This document shows positions 42,845 through 50,625 of a stretch of DNA of 64,000 nucleotides, in pieces. The DNA lies in assembly GCA_902801625.1 (NCBI GenBank), contig CADCJI010000007.1, forward strand, positions 40,800 through 104,799, given 5' to 3'. The notes beneath the pieces were generated by a model. It was not told the origin of the DNA and searched no databases. It saw only the letters and a list, made by a program, of their open reading frames with translations. This DNA is from an uncultured Bacteroidia bacterium (GTDB taxonomy: Bacteria; Bacteroidota; Bacteroidia; Bacteroidales; F082). The position numbers and the translations under genes are program-made. Position 1 is the first letter of the stretch. Each line of letters begins with the position of its first letter.

Positions 42845-43183
42845 ATGGCCAAACCACATAGAATACATATTGGACATCTTATTAAAGATGTTTTTGATAA
42901 AAAGGGAATGAGCGTGGCCGAATTTGCACGTCGTATCAATTGTGCAAGACCCAACGTTTATTCCATTTTTGAGCGTTACGACATTGGTGTAGAACAACTT
43001 ATTAACATTTCCGAAGCTTTGGATCACAATTTTTTTGATGATATCCAATTGAAAAGCGGCTTAACTTCATCATTACAAACGCGGCAAATGAACGTTCGTT
43101 TCAACCTCGAGTCGTTTTCTGTGGAAAAAGCGGAAAGAATTGGAATTTTGCTGAAAGAATTGAAAGAATTGGTTGAAGAATAG
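42845..43183 (+). CDS. XRE-type helix-turn-helix regulator
   Basis: 112 residues. The HTH is at about residues 10-70: IGHLIKDVFDKKGMSVAEFA, RRINCARPNVYSIFERYDIG and VEQLINISEALDHNFF, the usual five-helix XRE plan. The C-terminal third is a basic/acidic helix (ESFSVEKAERIGILLKELKE) that may dimerise. Its position upstream of, and in line with, the RiPP genes and the inverted repeat over its own promoter suggest that it controls this operon and itself. That is inference from position. Confidence 0.7.
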   Translation: MAKPHRIHIGHLIKDVFDKKGMSVAEFARRINCARPNVYSIFERYDIGVEQLINISEALDHNFFDDIQLKSGLTSSLQTRQMNVRFNLESFSVEKAERIGILLKELKELVEE

Positions 43184-44324: not shown

Positions 44325-44397
44325 CCCCGATGAGCCAAAATGGGTAATAACCTTGGTAAAAATGCAATGGAAAACGATAAAAACAACGAGACCCAAA
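44325..44397 (+). repeat. Direct repeat, copy 2 (matches 43303-43377)
   Basis: The second copy of the leader plus 5' coding segment, here in front of the intact first precursor. Its presence on both sides of the exported-protein gene suggests duplication of a precursor gene around that gene. Confidence 0.8.
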
Positions 44398-44744
44398 GCA
44401 GAAGACAATTTTTCAAAGAAGCGGCAAAAAAGACTTTGCCCATTTTAGAAATAGCCGTAATGGCCATGGCCGTTCCAAGCACATTACAATCGTGTAAAAA
44501 AATCTCCTTAGGGTGTGATGATGTTTGTACTAATGCTTGTAAAACCACTTGCAGGACTACTTGTGTAGGTAATTGTTCAAATTCTTGTTCTGGCTCATGT
44601 AAGTCCGCTTGTACAGTAACTTGTTCTACTGCATGCACTACTACCTGCAAAAATTCCTGCAAAACTTCCTGCAAAACAACTTGTAATACAACTTGTAAAA
44701 CAACTTGTAGAAATAGTTGTAGGACTGCAACAAGGTTTTATTAA
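44367..44744 (+). CDS. CXXX-repeat RiPP precursor peptide 1 with Tat signal
   Basis: 125 residues from MENDKNNETQSRRQFFKEAA; the upstream ATG at 44340 lies within the duplicated leader and I reject it because the second precursor aligns from this Met. The twin-arginine motif SRRQFFK is followed by a basic stretch and a hydrophobic run (TLPILEIAVMAMAVPSTLQS), with LQSC as a possible lipobox. The core has 18 cysteines at strict four-residue spacing (CDDVCTNACKTTC, CSNSCSGSCKSAC, CKNSCKTSCKTTC) and ends TATRFY. This is the CXXX-repeat target of radical SAM maturases. The leader is a Tat signal rather than a GG-type leader. Confidence 0.88.
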   Translation: MENDKNNETQSRRQFFKEAAKKTLPILEIAVMAMAVPSTLQSCKKISLGCDDVCTNACKTTCRTTCVGNCSNSCSGSCKSACTVTCSTACTTTCKNSCKTSCKTTCNTTCKTTCRNSCRTATRFY

Positions 44745-44821
44745 ATAAGATCCACAATTTTCTGACATCATGAAAAAACATATTCATCGTTATTATTTGA
44801 GTATCAGCTAAGTTAATTATA

Positions 44822-45115
44822 ATGAAAAACGAACTTAAAAACAGAAGAGAATTCTTCAAAGAAGCGGCAAAAAAGACTTTACCCATTTTAGGAATGGCCG
44901 TAATAGCCATGGCTGTTCCAAGCACATTACAATCGTGTAAAAAGATTTCCTTAGGTTGTGATGATGTTTGTACTAATGCATGTAAAACCACTTGCAAAAC
45001 CACTTGTGTAGGAGGTGCTAAATGCAGTTGCGGTTCAGGTTGTACTACTTCCTGTTATAATAGAGGTTGTAGTAGTACATGCTACAGTAAATGTAATGCA
45101 AATACAAGGTTTTAA
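44822..45115 (+). CDS. CXXX-repeat RiPP precursor peptide 2 with Tat signal
   Basis: 97 residues. The N-terminus (NRREFFKEAAKKTLPILGMA, then AVPSTLQSCKKISLGCDDVC) is nearly the same as precursor 1 through the first four core cysteines, but the core then differs: CVGGAKCSCGSGCTTSC and CYSKCNANTRF, with CX5C, CXC and CX4C spacings in place of strict CX3C, and 12 core cysteines. The shared TRF ending suggests a common recognition feature. The stop codon overlaps the start of the radical SAM gene by one base (TAATG), so translation is coupled. Confidence 0.88.
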   Translation: MKNELKNRREFFKEAAKKTLPILGMAVIAMAVPSTLQSCKKISLGCDDVCTNACKTTCKTTCVGGAKCSCGSGCTTSCYNRGCSSTCYSKCNANTRF

Positions 45116-46335
45116 TGACAATTATAAAAGCCCAACAAGAATCCTGGCAGTCCGGCATGGCGAAGAACATCACCTTCATCGTCACGAAGGACTGCCAATT
45201 GGCTTGCAAATACTGCTACCTCGTCGGAAAGAACGTGAAGGAACGCATGCCTTGGGATGTGGCCAAGACTTTTATCGACTATGTGCTTGACCATGAGACC
45301 GACCCAGAATTTGCTGAAGAATCTGTAGTGTGGGACTTCATCGGCGGCGAGCCATTCTTAGAGATAGAGCTTATCGACAAGATTTGCGACTACATCAAAA
45401 CCGAACTATTCCGCCGTAACCACCATTGGTTCAACAGTTACCGTTTCTCCTTCTCCACCAACGGCATCAACTATCACGAGAAGGCCGTGCAAGACTTCAT
45501 CCAAAAGAACCTTGACCACCTTTCCATCGGCATCACCATCGACGGAACGGAGAAGAAGCACGACTTGAACCGAGTGTATAAGATTACTGAAAAAGGCTCG
45601 TACCAAGATGTAGTGAAGAACATTCCTCTTTGGTTGGAGCAGTTTCCGGGCAGCGGCACCAAGGTCACTATCTCCTCAGTGGACATACCCTATATCACTG
45701 AAAGCGTGCTACATCTCTACAGCCTCGGCATCCACGAGGTGAACATCAACGTGGTGTTTGAGGATGTGTGGCAAGAAGGTGATGACTTGAAGTTTGAGGA
45801 ACAACTTATGCAACTGGCCGATGCCATCATCGATGGTGGCTACTACCAAGACTACGCCTGCTCGTTCTTCTCGGAACACATCGGCAAGCCCATGAACCTC
45901 GAGCGAGACAACCATAACTGGTGCGGCGCTGGCAAGATGCTCAGTGTGGACGCGGCAGGAAACCTTTATCCCTGTACCCGCTTCGCACAATACTCGCTCC
46001 GCGACAAGGATGCTTGGATTATCGGCAACATCCACGACGGTATCGATAAGAACAAGCTCCGTCCCTTCCTAACTTTGGACCTTACAACTCAAAGTCCGCA
46101 GAAATGCATAGAATGTGAGGTAGCGAGCGGCTGTGCCTGGTGCCAAGGCGAGAACTACGATGCTGCGAAGACTCATACCGTGTTCCAACGCGCCACGGCC
46201 ATCTGCCTCATGCACAAGGCAAGGGTGAGAGCCAATAACTACTACTGGAACAAGCTCTACCGCAAGCTCGAACTGGAAGACCTGCGAGAACAGTATGAAG
46301 CCAAAAAACGCGAAGTGAAACCCAAAATCTGCTAA
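45115..46335 (+). CDS. Radical SAM/SPASM peptide maturase, CXXX-repeat target family
   Basis: 406 residues. The radical SAM cluster motif CQLACKYCY has Cys27, Cys31 and Cys34 (CxxxCxxC) in TFIVTKDCQLACKYC, followed by the GGEP motif (WDFIGGEPFLEIELIDKICD). The C-terminal SPASM-like region has WCGAGKMLSVDAAGNLYPCT, KCIECEVASGCAWCQGENYD and a final ATAICLMH, enough cysteines for auxiliary [4Fe-4S] clusters. Members of this family act on CXXX-repeat peptides, probably making thioether or related cross-links to Cys. Being coupled to the precursor gene supports that pairing; the bond type cannot be read from sequence. Confidence 0.88.
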   Translation: MTIIKAQQESWQSGMAKNITFIVTKDCQLACKYCYLVGKNVKERMPWDVAKTFIDYVLDHETDPEFAEESVVWDFIGGEPFLEIELIDKICDYIKTELFRRNHHWFNSYRFSFSTNGINYHEKAVQDFIQKNLDHLSIGITIDGTEKKHDLNRVYKITEKGSYQDVVKNIPLWLEQFPGSGTKVTISSVDIPYITESVLHLYSLGIHEVNINVVFEDVWQEGDDLKFEEQLMQLADAIIDGGYYQDYACSFFSEHIGKPMNLERDNHNWCGAGKMLSVDAAGNLYPCTRFAQYSLRDKDAWIIGNIHDGIDKNKLRPFLTLDLTTQSPQKCIECEVASGCAWCQGENYDAAKTHTVFQRATAICLMHKARVRANNYYWNKLYRKLELEDLREQYEAKKREVKPKIC

Positions 46336-46338
46336 GCC

Positions 46339-47331
46339 ATGCTGCAATACCTTGTTATATTATTGGATGACACCAGTGTGGCCTACTGCCATGCCGACAA
46401 CCCGCTGAAAGAGCACAACCTCACGCCGCTCGAAACCTTGAAAAAAGGTATCCTCTTTGGGATGAAGCAAAACCTAATGATTCAGTATGTTTTCCCCAAC
46501 TATGAACTTCCGACAGCATATGCCGAAGTCATCGAGAGCATCGACAATGTGAAGATTTATCCCATTGGTTGCAAGCCCGTTACTAGCATTGAGGATGGCA
46601 ATGATATCGATGTGGAAGTGGCAAATGATGTTCCCGAAAAAGTGGAAGCCAAAAATTTGGTGCTGCGCCTTACTTTCAGCGAAATGCTGAAACAGAAGAA
46701 CGAAATTGCCAAGCTTTTTGTCTTGGGAGCAAGAGTCAACCTTTGCATTATTGATGTGGAACAATTCGCGGAAGAGCAAATTGAAACCTACAAGCAAGTC
46801 TTGAACGAGTGGAACACCACTTTGCTTAACCTATACAAACAAGGCAAATCGCCACAATTCAACCTCTTGACCGACAGGATCATGTTGGAGAAGATGCACA
46901 ACTGCGAGGCAGGTGTTAACAACATCACACTTGCGCCGAACGGGAAGTTCTATCTCTGCCCTGCATTCTACTATGACGAGCAAATGAAGGTCTTCAATCA
47001 ACTGAACCACCACAATCCCTCCTCGGACAATTCTGTTGGCGACTTGGAGAAAGGTTTGGATATCCCCAATCCGCAACTGCTCCACCTCGACCACGCGCCC
47101 TTGTGCCGCAATTGCGATGCCTACCAGTGTCGCCGCTGCATATGGCTTAACCGCCGCCTGACTTGGGACCTTAACACGCCCTCGCGCCAGCAATGTGTGA
47201 TGGCTCACATTGAGCGAAATGCTTCACGAGCCTTGCTGAACGACATCCGCAAGGTCAGCAAGTTCATGCCAGAGATTGACATCAAGGAAATCAACTACTT
47301 GGACCCATTTGAGGTCAGGAAGGAATTTTAG
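46339..47331 (+). CDS. CXXX repeat peptide maturase (SPASM-bearing, no radical SAM motif)
   Basis: 330 residues, 3 bp after the radical SAM gene. The N-terminal half lacks CxxxCxxC, but the second half keeps a SPASM-like cysteine series: HNCEAGVNNITLAPNGKFYL with the next Cys, APLCRNCDAYQCRRCIWLNR and RQQCVMAHIERNAS. It matches the family named CXXX repeat peptide maturase, found beside the radical SAM member in Bacteroidota. It is probably a substrate-binding or cluster-carrying partner of the active enzyme. It could also have a separate catalytic role, which sequence does not show. Confidence 0.75.
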   Translation: MLQYLVILLDDTSVAYCHADNPLKEHNLTPLETLKKGILFGMKQNLMIQYVFPNYELPTAYAEVIESIDNVKIYPIGCKPVTSIEDGNDIDVEVANDVPEKVEAKNLVLRLTFSEMLKQKNEIAKLFVLGARVNLCIIDVEQFAEEQIETYKQVLNEWNTTLLNLYKQGKSPQFNLLTDRIMLEKMHNCEAGVNNITLAPNGKFYLCPAFYYDEQMKVFNQLNHHNPSSDNSVGDLEKGLDIPNPQLLHLDHAPLCRNCDAYQCRRCIWLNRRLTWDLNTPSRQQCVMAHIERNASRALLNDIRKVSKFMPEIDIKEINYLDPFEVRKEF

Positions 47332-47335
47332 GACA

Positions 47336-47438
47336 CGCTTCGCGTCACTGCGAGGCACGAAGCAGTCCAGAACATCACCTTGATGGGAACTGGCAGCCTG
47401 GATTGCTTCGTTGTTCCTCCTCGCAATGACGCGAAGCG
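47336..47438. repeat. About 100-bp palindromic element inside the RiPP operon
   Basis: The left arm CGCTTCGCGTCACTGCGAGG continues with CACGAAGCAGTCCAG; the right arm is CTGGATTGCTTCGTTGTTCC, then TCCTCGCAATGACGCGAAGCG. The arms pair over about 38 bp with few bulges around a 25-bp middle. This matches the widespread CTGGATTGCTTCG...CAATGACG dispersed element of bacterial genomes. It sits between the second maturase and the modification-system gene. Confidence 0.85.
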
Positions 47439-47485
47439 ACGACAAGGCAGCAACAATTAAACGATAAACAATTCAACAATTAACA

Positions 47486-47755
47486 ATGAAAAAGAAAGTA
47501 GGTCAGGTCACCCCTGAAGAAAAAAACGAAATCCAGCAACTGTTCGAACGTCGCAACGGTCTAAATGAACTGGCAAAAATCCTTAGCGCCGATAATACGG
47601 AACTCTACGAAAAACTCGTCAAAGACATGGGCGAAACCAGCACCAAATTCCAAGGATGGTGGGATCGCATGTCGAAGAAATACCAATGGGAATCGGCAGA
47701 AAACGGCAACTGGGAAATCAACTTTGAAACCAACGAAATCTATCTTGTAGCATGA
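47486..47755 (+). CDS. CXXX repeat peptide modification system protein
   Basis: 89 residues, cytosolic and acidic/basic mixed, no membrane segment: [20 protein letters not shown], then [20 protein letters not shown] and a final [12 protein letters not shown]. It resembles the small partner protein regularly found in CXXX-repeat loci, where a helical fold with a Trp-rich turn is typical. It might deliver the leader or core to the maturase. Its stop overlaps the tatA start by 4 bp (ATGA), which ties the Tat genes to the RiPP operon. Confidence 0.72.
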
Positions 47756-47973
47756 CACTGTTATTCATAGGCACAACAGAACTTCTGCTCATCGCGGGCG
47801 TGGCCTTGCTCATCTTTGGCGGGAAAAAGATACCCGAGTTGATGAAAGGCTTAGGAAAGGGAGTGAAAAGCTACAAAGAAGGCTTGAATGAACCTTTAGA
47901 TGTGGAAGAACCTGAAAAGAAGGCGGATGAAGAAGAAACCCAGCCCGAAACAGGTGAAGGAAAAGGAAAATAA
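47752..47973 (+). CDS. tatA: Twin-arginine translocase subunit TatA
   Basis: 73 residues with the TatA plan: a short N-terminal helix [20 protein letters not shown], a hinge at [20 protein letters not shown], then an amphipathic helix and an acidic tail ([20 protein letters not shown]). It forms the pore-like oligomer that moves folded proteins across the inner membrane. It starts inside the modification-system gene and overlaps tatC by about 47 bp. In this phylum TatA commonly works without a separate TatB. Confidence 0.93.
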
Positions 47974-48766
47974 CCCTTCTTCCGACCCCAATATGCTGAC
48001 TTTCGGCGGACACCTTGAGGTGCTCCGAAAAATGCTGTTTCGCATCATTGCAGTTGTTATGGTGTTAGCGGTAGCTATTTTCTGTTTCAAAGAAAAAACA
48101 TTTGAGTTACTATTGGCACCCAGTCAATGGGATTTCATCACATACCGCTATATAGAAAAATTTCTACATTTGCTTGGATCTGAATTTACTTTCAACCAGT
48201 TCCACATCAATCTGATTGCCACTGAGTTGTCGAGTCAATTTATGACGCATATCACAACGGCAGTGTACCTCGGATTGTTAGGTGCTTCTCCCTACATCTT
48301 GGTCGAATTGTTCCGTTTCATCACACCCGCCTTGTACGAGAATGAGAAGAAATACTCCGTAAGTGTTGCAGCCACAATGTACCTGCTTTTCATCGTTGGT
48401 GTGCTGATGTCATACTTTGTCCTGTTTCCTATATCGTTCAGATTCCTTGGTACTTATAGTGTTTCAGGCATGGTGGAGAGTAACATCACACTGAAATCCT
48501 ATATCAGCACATTCACCACCTTGACTTTGGTTATGGGGTTGGTGTTCCAACTGCCCGTCATTGCCTTTTTCCTTGGCAAATTGGATATGATAAGATCCGA
48601 ATCACTAAAGCATTATCGAAAGCACGCCTTCCTTGTAATTATGGTCGTAGCAGCTATCATTACTCCACCCGACCTGATGACACTGATTTTGGTCACCATC
48701 CCACTTTATTTGCTCTATGAAGTGAGTATTTTAGTATTGAAACGGATGGAGAAAAGGAAGCGATAA
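47927..48766 (+). CDS. tatC: Twin-arginine translocase subunit TatC
   Basis: 279 residues from the ATG at 47927 ([20 protein letters not shown]). Six membrane helices of the TatC fold: [40 protein letters not shown] followed by [50 protein letters not shown] and [20 protein letters not shown]. The signal-binding first loop and the conserved Glu in VELFRF / TPALYENE are visible. TatC recognises the RR motif carried by both precursors upstream. The gene ends where the CotH gene on the other strand ends. Confidence 0.93.
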
Positions 48767-50401
48767 TTATTCCACCACCACCCTATCCACCTGCTGCTTT
48801 CCAGTAGTTAGAGTTACCAATGTGTAAACACCTTGGTTCAAACCTCGTGTGGAAATGACAAAAGCTTGTGTATTTGAAGTATTGGAATACACCAAGCGGC
48901 CCGTCATGTCGTATAATCTGACAGAAGCATCACCAGCTTCCGCAAAGCGGATGTTGATTCTGTCCTTGGCTGGATTGGGGTATATGGCTACACTTGAAAT
49001 CGGCCCTTCGACGGGCTCAGGAGCCTCTGGTTCCTCGATACCCCAAGTTCCACAAGCGGCATTGATTTCACCATCCAAATAACTGAAACGGTCGTCCAAC
49101 CAGTCGCTCAGGTAGGTCAACTGGCTCTCATCTACAGTAAACTCAGGCCATGCCTCATGCTCCCGCTCGTAAACACCGCTTTCAACCAATTCATCGTATT
49201 GGTTCTGAACCAATTCCATGATATGCTCGCGGTTCAAAAGGGTATCACGCAGTTCATTGTAACGGGTTTGCGCAGAGGCCACGAAACCATAATCATTACA
49301 GTCCTGTGTTAGGCGGTCGAAGAAGCCATTGCTCTTTAAACCAGCCGCGTTGTAAGTTTTGTTGCCGTCTGTATCCAAGCCCCAGATGGCATCCAAGTCC
49401 CAAGGCAGATACATATAGGTGCTTGACTTCTTGTAACGCGCCACAAACAAGTTGCGTCCCATGTTGTCCATAGCCATTAAACTATTGATAAACAAGTAGT
49501 AATCGATGGCATTATCCTTGTCAAACTGTGCGGCATACTGTGAATAGAACACATTGTCAGAGGCGTTCATCACGAAGTTGGTGAAACTGTAAAGATGGTT
49601 CCAGTTGATGGCGGTGTCACTCTCGTTGGGATAGACCCACTCATAGTTGTCCCAAGTGTCAAGCGTGTTGTCATACATTGGCAAGCTGTCAAAGGTCGGC
49701 GCGCCAGGGCCATTGCCCTTGTAGAGCACGCCACGGATGTCACCGTTGTATTTGCGCAGGCCGAGTTGCTTCCGGTCCATGCGCTCAGTCAAGGTGTAAA
49801 CGCCCAAGTATTCATCATTGATGAACAAGTCGGCATAGACCATACGGATGCCTGGCAAGGCAGCGGGTTCGCTTTCGGCATAAGGCAACTTGTACATCTC
49901 CATCCACAGTTCATTGGCCACCTTGTCGCGCAAGCGGAGCGGTTGAGCCCACATCGCCTCAAGGTTCCAGTCATCATCGCTGCGAAGCCCAAGGAAGGTG
50001 GTATCAGCCATCTCGGCGCCCGTCTCATCGGCCCAGAGCTCCACACGATACGATTTCTTGTCATACTGCTGCGAGGAGGTGCCCCTAATCTTGAATCCAG
50101 CGTGCATCGTGATGACATTGCCATCGGCATCAGCCACATTGATGAGGCCATGCACAGCAGGCGAGTTGACAATCGGGCCATCGGTGATGATGGTGACGAG
50201 CGGCATTTCGCTTCGATAATAGGTATAGGTTTCACCCTTCACCTCTATCGTTTCCTTATACGGCTTCATGCCCTCAAGCAGTCGTCCCGTGGCTACTATG
50301 ATTTTCTTCTCATGGTCGATGCCAAACGACTTCCCTACTTCCTGAGCTTTTATACTGCATGTCACTAATACTAGACTTATTATCAAAAAGAACTTCTTCA
50401 T
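48767..50401 (-). CDS. CotH-like kinase-fold exported protein with T9SS sorting domain
   Basis: 544 residues from MKKFFLIISLVLVTCSIKAQ, a signal peptide. The CotH core runs from about residue 90 to 400: GFKIRGTSSQQYDKKSYRVE, LGLRSDDDWNLEAMWAQPLR, then LGVYTLTERMDRKQLGLRKY and YMYLPWDLDAIWGLDTDG. CotH proteins are atypical protein kinases found in spore coats and on cell surfaces. The C-terminus is a type IX sorting domain (VAIYPNPAKDRINIRFAEAG, VRLYDMTGRLVYSN, GVYTLVTLTTGKQQVDRVVV). The linker contains PEAPEPVEGPIS, produced by a copy of the dispersed palindrome at 49002-49025. The longer start at 50422 would add a few residues from the repeat array. Confidence 0.85.
   Translation of the reverse strand: MKKFFLIISLVLVTCSIKAQEVGKSFGIDHEKKIIVATGRLLEGMKPYKETIEVKGETYTYYRSEMPLVTIITDGPIVNSPAVHGLINVADADGNVITMHAGFKIRGTSSQQYDKKSYRVELWADETGAEMADTTFLGLRSDDDWNLEAMWAQPLRLRDKVANELWMEMYKLPYAESEPAALPGIRMVYADLFINDEYLGVYTLTERMDRKQLGLRKYNGDIRGVLYKGNGPGAPTFDSLPMYDNTLDTWDNYEWVYPNESDTAINWNHLYSFTNFVMNASDNVFYSQYAAQFDKDNAIDYYLFINSLMAMDNMGRNLFVARYKKSSTYMYLPWDLDAIWGLDTDGNKTYNAAGLKSNGFFDRLTQDCNDYGFVASAQTRYNELRDTLLNREHIMELVQNQYDELVESGVYEREHEAWPEFTVDESQLTYLSDWLDDRFSYLDGEINAACGTWGIEEPEAPEPVEGPISSVAIYPNPAKDRINIRFAEAGDASVRLYDMTGRLVYSNTSNTQAFVISTRGLNQGVYTLVTLTTGKQQVDRVVVE
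49002..49025. repeat. Dispersed palindrome inside the CotH-like gene
   Basis: GGCCCTTCGACGGGCTCAGG plus AGCC, in frame, coding on the minus strand for APEPVEGP in the linker before the sorting domain. Confidence 0.88.
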
Positions 50402-50625
50402 ATTCAAAGATTCAAAATACAAGATTCAAAGATTCAAGATTCAAAGATTCAAAGATTCAAAGATTCAAAATTCAAGATTCAAAGATTCAAGATTCAAAGA
50501 TTCAAGATTCAAAGATTCAAAGATTCAAAGATTCAAAATTCAAGATTCAAAGATTCAAAATTCAAGATTCAAAGATTTAAAATTCAAAGATTCAAAGATT
50601 TAAAACTCAAAGATTCAAAGATTGG
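50402..50625. repeat. AAGATTCA word array
   Basis: More than 20 tandem copies of 7-8 bp words (AAGATTCA, AAATTCA, AAGATTTA) run from the signal-peptide codons of the CotH-like gene for about 220 bp. There are no spacers, so it is not a CRISPR array. A TATCAGC-type inverted word pair follows at 50626-50640. Confidence 0.9.

Follow-up and report, generated by a model that had tools for sequence, protein, structure and literature searches.

The window analysed here, a stretch of 64,000 nt from contig CADCJI010000007.1 of an uncultured Bacteroidia bacterium, carries a run of seven genes on the + strand, between positions 44367 and 48766 (window positions throughout), in which a CXXX-repeat system for a ribosomally synthesized and post-translationally modified peptide (RiPP) is joined to a pair of twin-arginine translocation (Tat) genes. 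Two Cys-rich precursors are followed by genes for a radical SAM/SPASM maturase, a partner protein, a small TIGR04116 protein, TatA and TatC. An earlier note, made from the letters of this stretch, had described this gene content with its positions and two Cys-rich precursors with the motifs SRRQFFK, NRREFFK and LQSC; profile scores and coordinates bear out both descriptions (Table 1). We consider it likely, with considerable confidence, that the leader of these precursors is a Tat signal and that the TatAC pair of the operon exports the modified cysteine-repeat product, which would then be lipidated or released.

Leaders of the CXXX precursors

Each precursor has a twin-arginine (RR) motif (SRRQFFK or NRREFFK), a lysine pair, LPIL, a hydrophobic run and LQSC, and both pass a simple Tat-signal rule of our own (an SRRxFxK-like motif, an uncharged hydrophobic run and a signal peptidase site). 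A rule of this type, confined to the first 70 residues, passes 137 of 3101 background open reading frames (ORFs), perhaps with true Tat proteins among them. The precursors contain 19 and 13 Cys, respectively, with Cys codons at a 12-base period in both, and have in common a stretch of 188 nt with 89% identity; precursor 2, used as a query over the genome, finds both window precursors and one doubtful match (E 0.455). From its position 14 on, the TIGR04117 profile matches the Tat region of precursor 1, and because it covers this region, its builders may have had such leaders before them.

We gathered 152 unique precursors with the pattern RR-x-[FLI]-[FLIV]-[KR] plus repeats, which constrains the positions that it names; at these, the three variable positions hold F (152 precursors), F (148) and K (143). 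At positions left free by the search, Ser or Asn precedes the RR in 132 of the 152, the Leu and the Pro of LP are present in 137 and 147, and a Gly stands three residues past this Pro in 113. By a loose rule, leader ends are lipobox-like in 51 of 152, AxA-like in 98 and neither in 3, though several of the 51 may instead be AxA sites with the first Cys of the repeats behind them; these two kinds of end would fit a lipid-anchored or a released product. Bacteroidetes lipoproteins have a surface-export signal of acidic residues at such positions as +2 to +7 (PMC5080379). At least two acidic residues at +2 to +7 are found in 26 of the 51 lipobox-like precursors, and the window's own precursors (CKKISLGC) lack this feature. 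The Tat precursors have 6–74 Cys (median 15), and in their spacers, of which SGS and SGG are the commonest, Ser, Gly, Thr and Lys abound.

Five of the 152 precursors are long (L156:8730-9458, L170:8696-9964, L197:454-1818, L199:5456-6430 and L220:15627-17009), with a Cys-free stretch of 65–141 residues between or before CXXX blocks. Compared with Pfam, these five gave no family above cut-off.

CXXX genes and tatC recur together

Among 99 genus genomes, the TIGR04116 gene is found in 27 (31 loci) and TatC in 85 (114 matches). At 29 of the 31 loci, the TIGR04116 gene has a same-strand tatC no more than 2 kb away (the exceptions are G510:C56 and G509:C1), at a distance of 253–368 bases except in the broken G452 copies, whereas none of 46 other radical SAM matches in genus genomes, which include pieces of single enzymes and come in part from genomes without tatC (G400, G441 and G447), lies within 6 kb of a tatC. 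This comparison rules out a chance pairing of CXXX genes and tatC. Its control uses tatC positions only from genomes with a control match, with the tatC pieces of G452 left out, and excludes matches within CXXX loci (the partner gene at G419:C11:24045 and six G452 pieces) as well as G410:C10:11776, a short piece upstream of the operon of that genome, whose tatC is over 6 kb away. More than one tatC is found in 21 of the 27 genus genomes with the TIGR04116 gene versus 2 of the 72 without it. Genome G452 carries two copies of the CXXX locus (L080, that is G452:C16, and G452:C51) with equal match scores, with maturase and tatC in pieces.

For a wider sample, species genomes were scanned with an 11-row maturase alignment, and the best 80 of 405 relatives were used. 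These 80 are mostly metagenome-assembled genomes titled Bacteroidales or broader Bacteroidota, with Xylanibacter rarus (locus L156, with tatAC), Bacteroides congonensis (L200, without tatAC) and Bacteroides sp. GM023 among those that are named. Once genus loci were added, 115 loci were annotated, or 100 with duplicates removed; 72 of these have a downstream tatC, 18 have room for one but none, and 10 are cut by a contig end. A Tat-type precursor is present in all 67 tatC-linked loci with a detected precursor, and 115 of the 118 candidate ORFs are of this type. The three others are an unrelated ORF of L156 (3.5 kb off), the apparent second half of a broken precursor, also in L156, and an ORF of L168 that starts past the RR position. 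No precursor was detected in the tatC-linked loci L137, L179, L201, L216 and L219; under a relaxed filter, RR precursors appear in L201 and L216. None could be made out in L262 (G701), a contig of 3.2 kb. TatC was counted in 46 of the 80 genomes, with at least one in 45 and none found in G566 (L190). The earlier note had allowed that RR motifs and nearby tat genes might prove rare among CXXX precursors of related genomes; they are instead common there.

Leader type and exporter type switch together

RiPP precursors usually feed ATP-binding cassette (ABC) exporters. In the Bacteroidota set, four loci have CXXX proteins that lack the RR: L083, L084 and L085, which form one family, and L079, which belongs to another. 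An ABC exporter adjoins the maturase in all four of these loci versus none of 79 Tat-leader loci (Fisher 5e-7). Because leader and exporter types switch together, this distribution argues that the leader is a Tat signal used by the TatAC of the operon. On the same strand within 4 kb, we found no relative of these exporters in the other 96 loci (10 of them cut by contig ends), the 12 Tat-leader loci without an adjacent tatC among them. Out to 7 kb on both strands, ABC-family ORFs occur in L077, L154, L185, L186 and L205 at 2.1–6.2 kb, none of them adjoining the operon; that of L077, 2.6 kb upstream on the same strand, falls under the score limit of the 4-kb search. Loss of the RR owing to absence of Tat is ruled out, since each of the four genomes has one TatC.

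The L083–L085 proteins retain a K-T-L-P-G part of the leader. Because the LP part survives loss of the RR, it probably serves enzyme recognition, so that the leader would have this role as well. In L079 (6603-11263), an ABC exporter and a QhpE-like protease (111 bits against QhpE, cut-off 165) stand between the CXXX protein and a fused maturase-partner gene, a qhp-like arrangement. A fifth case comes from plasmid NC_013164.1 of Anaerococcus prevotii (Bacillota), where an ABC exporter accompanies a fused maturase-partner (487.0 and 278.8 bits) and an ORF of 56 aa that lacks the RR and has four Cys spaced at the CXXX period. In a further family (L263), the leader reads DRRNFL, and neither tat genes nor an ABC exporter was seen by eye over the part inspected.

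Operon TatCs and the second tat locus

Operon TatCs fall in few clades, mostly apart from free TatCs. On an unrooted tree of 130 non-redundant TatCs (73 from operons and 57 free, with ORFs shorter than 200 aa removed), the operon or free label changes 4 times, compared with a mean of 42.7 for shuffled labels, and 0 of 500 shuffles were as low. The window TatC belongs to a clade in which 49 TatCs come from operons and 2 are free; two further clades, of 13 and 10 members, are operon-only, and L078 stands alone. The Glu of YENEKK, which we take to be the RR-binding residue of TatC, is present in all 73 operon TatCs and in all 57 free ones. On a rougher, also unrooted tree of the maturases, with long doubtful rows (such as L221, L214 and L216) and unsettled bootstrap, we used only starred sister pairs, and sister loci such as L180 and L165 carry different TatC clades. 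One and the same slot would thus have received new tat pairs repeatedly, and this speaks against passive hitch-hiking, with the proviso that unrooted trees tell no gain from loss.

The genome (3.58 Mb in 62 contigs, 84% complete), probably that of a gut or rumen Bacteroidales, does hold another tat locus, a point raised in the earlier note: a second tatA-tatC pair lies on a different contig (G000:C40:22957-25634; L064:6623-10806). Downstream of this pair are a NapH/NapG-like polyferredoxin and an MDRREFLK protein with a lipobox-like end that weakly resembles aldo/keto reductases. The curated Tat-signal model TIGR01409 gives two matches in the genome, both beside this locus: the polyferredoxin ORF contains one of them (17.5 bits, cut-off 16.7), and the other, which at 14.4 bits falls short of that cut-off, covers the start of the reductase-like protein. 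Both tat pairs of the genome thus adjoin likely cargo.

Maturation proteins

The nearest solved relative of the maturase is 5wgg (E 1.6e-36), which we take to be CteB, a thioether-forming enzyme. After TIGR04115, its next family is PapB (NF047865), at 186.9 bits under a cut-off of 340, and it scores 99.9 against the QhpD model TIGR03906 (cut-off 453). The maturase is thus close to the PapB/SCIFF ranthipeptide maturases in nearest family and nearest solved chain and differs in falling under the PapB cut-off; to our knowledge, precursors of that group carry no Tat signal. PapB forms thioethers (PMC8172795, PMC11048544). Thioether staples are the most likely modification of the repeats, judging from the enzyme family.

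The partner has a radical SAM-like fold (model pLDDT 75.6, with a poor stretch at 250-280; the fold that it matches best is 4k36, from an anaerobic sulfatase maturase, E 6.6e-4), and lack of CxxxCxxC rules it out as an active radical SAM enzyme. The TIGR04116 protein is modelled with pLDDT 94 as a helical hairpin with strands, without a match in the PDB at E<=0.001; since this predicted fold is no winged helix, the role of a RiPP recognition element is ruled out for it. Scans against Pfam and NCBIfam, which covered all seven operon proteins plus three neighbours, found no MNIO (DUF692) enzyme.

Interpretation and alternatives

On the reading that we favour, the precursor leader itself (S/N-R-R-x-F-F-K, K-x-x-L-P-[IV]-[LI]-G and a hydrophobic run, ending in a lipobox or an AxA site) would be the Tat signal. 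The radical SAM/SPASM enzyme, its degenerate partner and the TIGR04116 protein would modify the CXXX repeats in the cytosol, and the TatA and TatC of the operon would carry the finished product across the inner membrane, to be lipidated or released. We infer the kind of modification, that the product is folded or stapled when it leaves, its final place, and the order of modification before export, the last in analogy to QhpD; Tat handling of such cargo has an engineered precedent in nisin display. If this reading is true, a Tat leader with its own operon TatAC would be a second signal-peptide route for RiPPs, on which Sec signals are called a rare feature (PMC12452194). It would also hint at how export waits for completed modification, provide a natural test of the range of Tat cargo (small, cysteine-rich and Gly/Ser-rich), and account for the second tatAC in many genus genomes.

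Several points weigh against this reading. The hydrophobic stretch of precursor 1 holds a Glu (LPILEIAVMAMAVPSTLQSC), and TIGR01409, run over the whole genome at E up to 10, detects neither precursor. The four RR-less loci amount to two lineages, or three counting the Anaerococcus plasmid, and the wider sample, as the best 80 of 405 relatives, leans to near kin. Because 12 of the 79 Tat-leader loci lack an adjacent tatC, in genomes that carry TatC elsewhere, the operon tatAC is not indispensable. In 5 of the 27 genus genomes with the TIGR04116 gene the operon tatC is the sole tatC found, so it may serve other cargo too; G510 has only one tatC, elsewhere.

That Tat acts as a timing device is a possible but somewhat unlikely alternative: Sec would release the precursor unmodified while Tat waits, and stapling or folding as such would be irrelevant. 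Premature export of RiPPs with Sec signals must be prevented by some mechanism (PMC12452194), lanthipeptide engineers have proposed Tat for longer contact with the enzymes (PMC5686179), and the LP part kept in the ABC-linked L083–L085 suggests that leader and enzyme recognition may overlap. However, timing alone does not account for the retention of a second tatAC within the operon (more than one tatC in 21/27 versus 2/72 genomes).

It is improbable that the CXXX peptide instead binds a metal in the cytosol and exits as a metallo-peptide, with the radical SAM step secondary or an aid to binding. The many Cys of the Tat precursors would suit such a role, and Tat carries cofactor-bearing proteins. 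MNIO-class RiPPs with signal peptides bind copper (PMC12452194). Yet the CXXX proteins are constantly paired with a radical SAM enzyme from a group that forms thioethers, their spacers are rich in Ser, Gly and Thr, and no metal gene was seen by eye among the neighbour families found in at least 5 loci. Least credible by far is that tatAC merely sits in the operon without a role in export, the RR being due to chance or a maturase motif, even though the 12 Tat-leader loci noted above manage without an adjacent tatC. Against it stand the different TatC clades that share one slot in sister loci (L180 and L165), the joint change of leader RR and exporter type, and the occurrence of Tat-like signals in only 137/3101 background ORFs.

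Relation to known systems

We found no paper linking CXXX or radical SAM RiPPs with Tat in a natural system, in a search that covered few subscription journals; within this scope, the statement of the earlier note that the tie is undescribed holds for natural systems, and an engineered nisin display on phage exists. In the latter, nisin fused to pIII is exported by Tat, and mature nisin is displayed after leader removal (PMC11048544). This display shares with our reading a thioether-bearing RiPP carried by Tat (PMC11048544; proposal in PMC5686179), but it is a man-made phage-coat fusion with neither a natural operon nor a dedicated TatAC (PMC11048544). The CXXX-repeat systems named in TIGR04115, TIGR04116, TIGR04117 and TIGR04119 agree with the window operon in that maturase, partner, small protein and precursor 1 score above the cut-offs; the model names are silent on Tat, whereas here tatA-tatC is part of the gene set and the leader is of Tat type.

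Bufferins and other MNIO RiPPs have Cys-rich precursors with a signal-peptide leader, some of them long, and about 16% of one family are predicted lipoproteins, but these RiPPs are MNIO-modified and Sec-exported, and the main text of the article mentions neither Tat nor twin-arginine (PMC12452194). The DAG-RiPPs, lipoprotein-RiPP hybrids, likewise have a precursor with a lipobox and a lipidated Cys; they differ in using an MNIO enzyme, and the main text describing them is without Tat or twin-arginine (PMC12636315). In the qhp operon, whose product is the gamma subunit of quinohemoprotein amine dehydrogenase, Cys thioethers are likewise formed in the cytosol by a radical SAM enzyme, QhpD, while the product is still to be exported, but it leaves through the ABC transporter QhpF, not Tat (PMC7876137); the CXXX relative L079, with its QhpE-like protease and ABC exporter, is akin to it in arrangement.

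CXXX proteins in phages

A scan of viral contigs gave 30 maturase relatives (IMG/VR contigs L266–L295, several of them near-copies), and the six phage-contig maturases that were scored (L266, L267, L271, L272, L278 and L279) are above the TIGR04115 cut-off. Of the 30 loci, 20 gave a CXXX ORF, none of the 20 with the RR pattern in its first 80 residues, and there was no tatC or ABC match across the 30 loci in the stretches examined. The L266 CXXX protein is 765 aa long with 160 Cys; those of L271 and L278 are encoded downstream of genes of baseplate wedge, baseplate or structural, and tail-fibre families. Examples are L271:1509-7209, L278:2421-7902 and L266:3303-7437. These signal-less CXXX proteins are possibly radical SAM-modified virion proteins. 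In several of the contigs L283–L293, the maturase is in pieces split by in-frame stops or short gaps, which may reflect a reassigned stop codon.

The phage proteins and the long precursors hint that what the modification produces is a structural domain, with the leader set by the destination. We offer, tentatively and with more doubt than confidence, the view that CXXX maturation is a portable hardening of a structural protein domain rather than the making of a small peptide drug, with one enzyme family stapling domains that have Cys at every fourth residue and the delivery route following the place of use. A dedicated Tat would then serve the surface or periplasm in Bacteroidales and ABC exporters other lineages, and phages would need no exporter. 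If true, the RiPP-specific Tat would be the export branch of a wider kind of stapled protein.

Gene organization and surroundings of the operon

The features of the operon are listed in Table 1.

Table 1. Features of the CXXX-Tat operon, with positions in the 64,000-nt window and profile scores in bits
Feature	Positions	Strand	Evidence
CXXX-repeat precursor 1, Tat-type leader (SRRQFFK ... LQSC)	44367..44744	+	TIGR04117 51.1, cut-off 50
CXXX-repeat precursor 2, Tat-type leader (NRREFFK ... LQSC)	44822..45115	+	TIGR04117 39.6, below cut-off 50
Radical SAM/SPASM maturase	45115..46335	+	TIGR04115 613.2, cut-off 350
Partner protein, radical SAM-like fold + SPASM, no CxxxCxxC	46339..47331	+	TIGR04119 222.6, cut-off 150
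Inverted repeat between partner and TIGR04116 genes	47336..47438	.	two 20-nt arms, 95% complementary, 63 nt apart
Small CXXX-system protein, 89 aa	47486..47755	+	TIGR04116 100.8, cut-off 50
tatA	47752..47973	+	TIGR01411 56.8 (cut-off 53.9); PF02416 51.7 (21)
tatC, true start not settled	47900..48766	+	TIGR00945 160.8 (cut-off 132.7); PF00902 203.5 (25.1)

A further in-frame ATG at 44340 is possible as the start of precursor 1. For tatC, the first ATG (47900) falls within tatA, and later ATGs are present; solved relatives of the operon TatC are 9e02 and 4b4a. Of the three overlapping junctions described in the earlier note, those of precursor 2 with the maturase (1 base, at 45115) and of the TIGR04116 gene with tatA (47752-47755) stand, and that of tatA with tatC depends on the start of tatC. 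The gap of 154 bases between the end of the partner gene (47331) and the start of the TIGR04116 gene (47486) contains the inverted repeat, whose arms have no further matching copies across the window. Because of this gap and repeat, the seven genes form one run and not necessarily one transcript; scans for promoters and terminators gave a signal near that of shuffles.

Besides the precursors, no neighbour family occurs in more than 15 of 105 loci. A small Xre-like regulator lies at 42845-43183 of the window, and its relatives are near the operon in 15 of the 105 loci, mostly upstream and on the same strand. Convergent with the operon is a gene for a CotH-kinase protein with a type IX secretion tail (48767-50422, - strand); seven loci, that of the window among them, have a relative on the opposite strand downstream. 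Beyond this gene, at 50402-50623, the 8-base unit ATTCAAAG forms a tandem array of ~29 copies.

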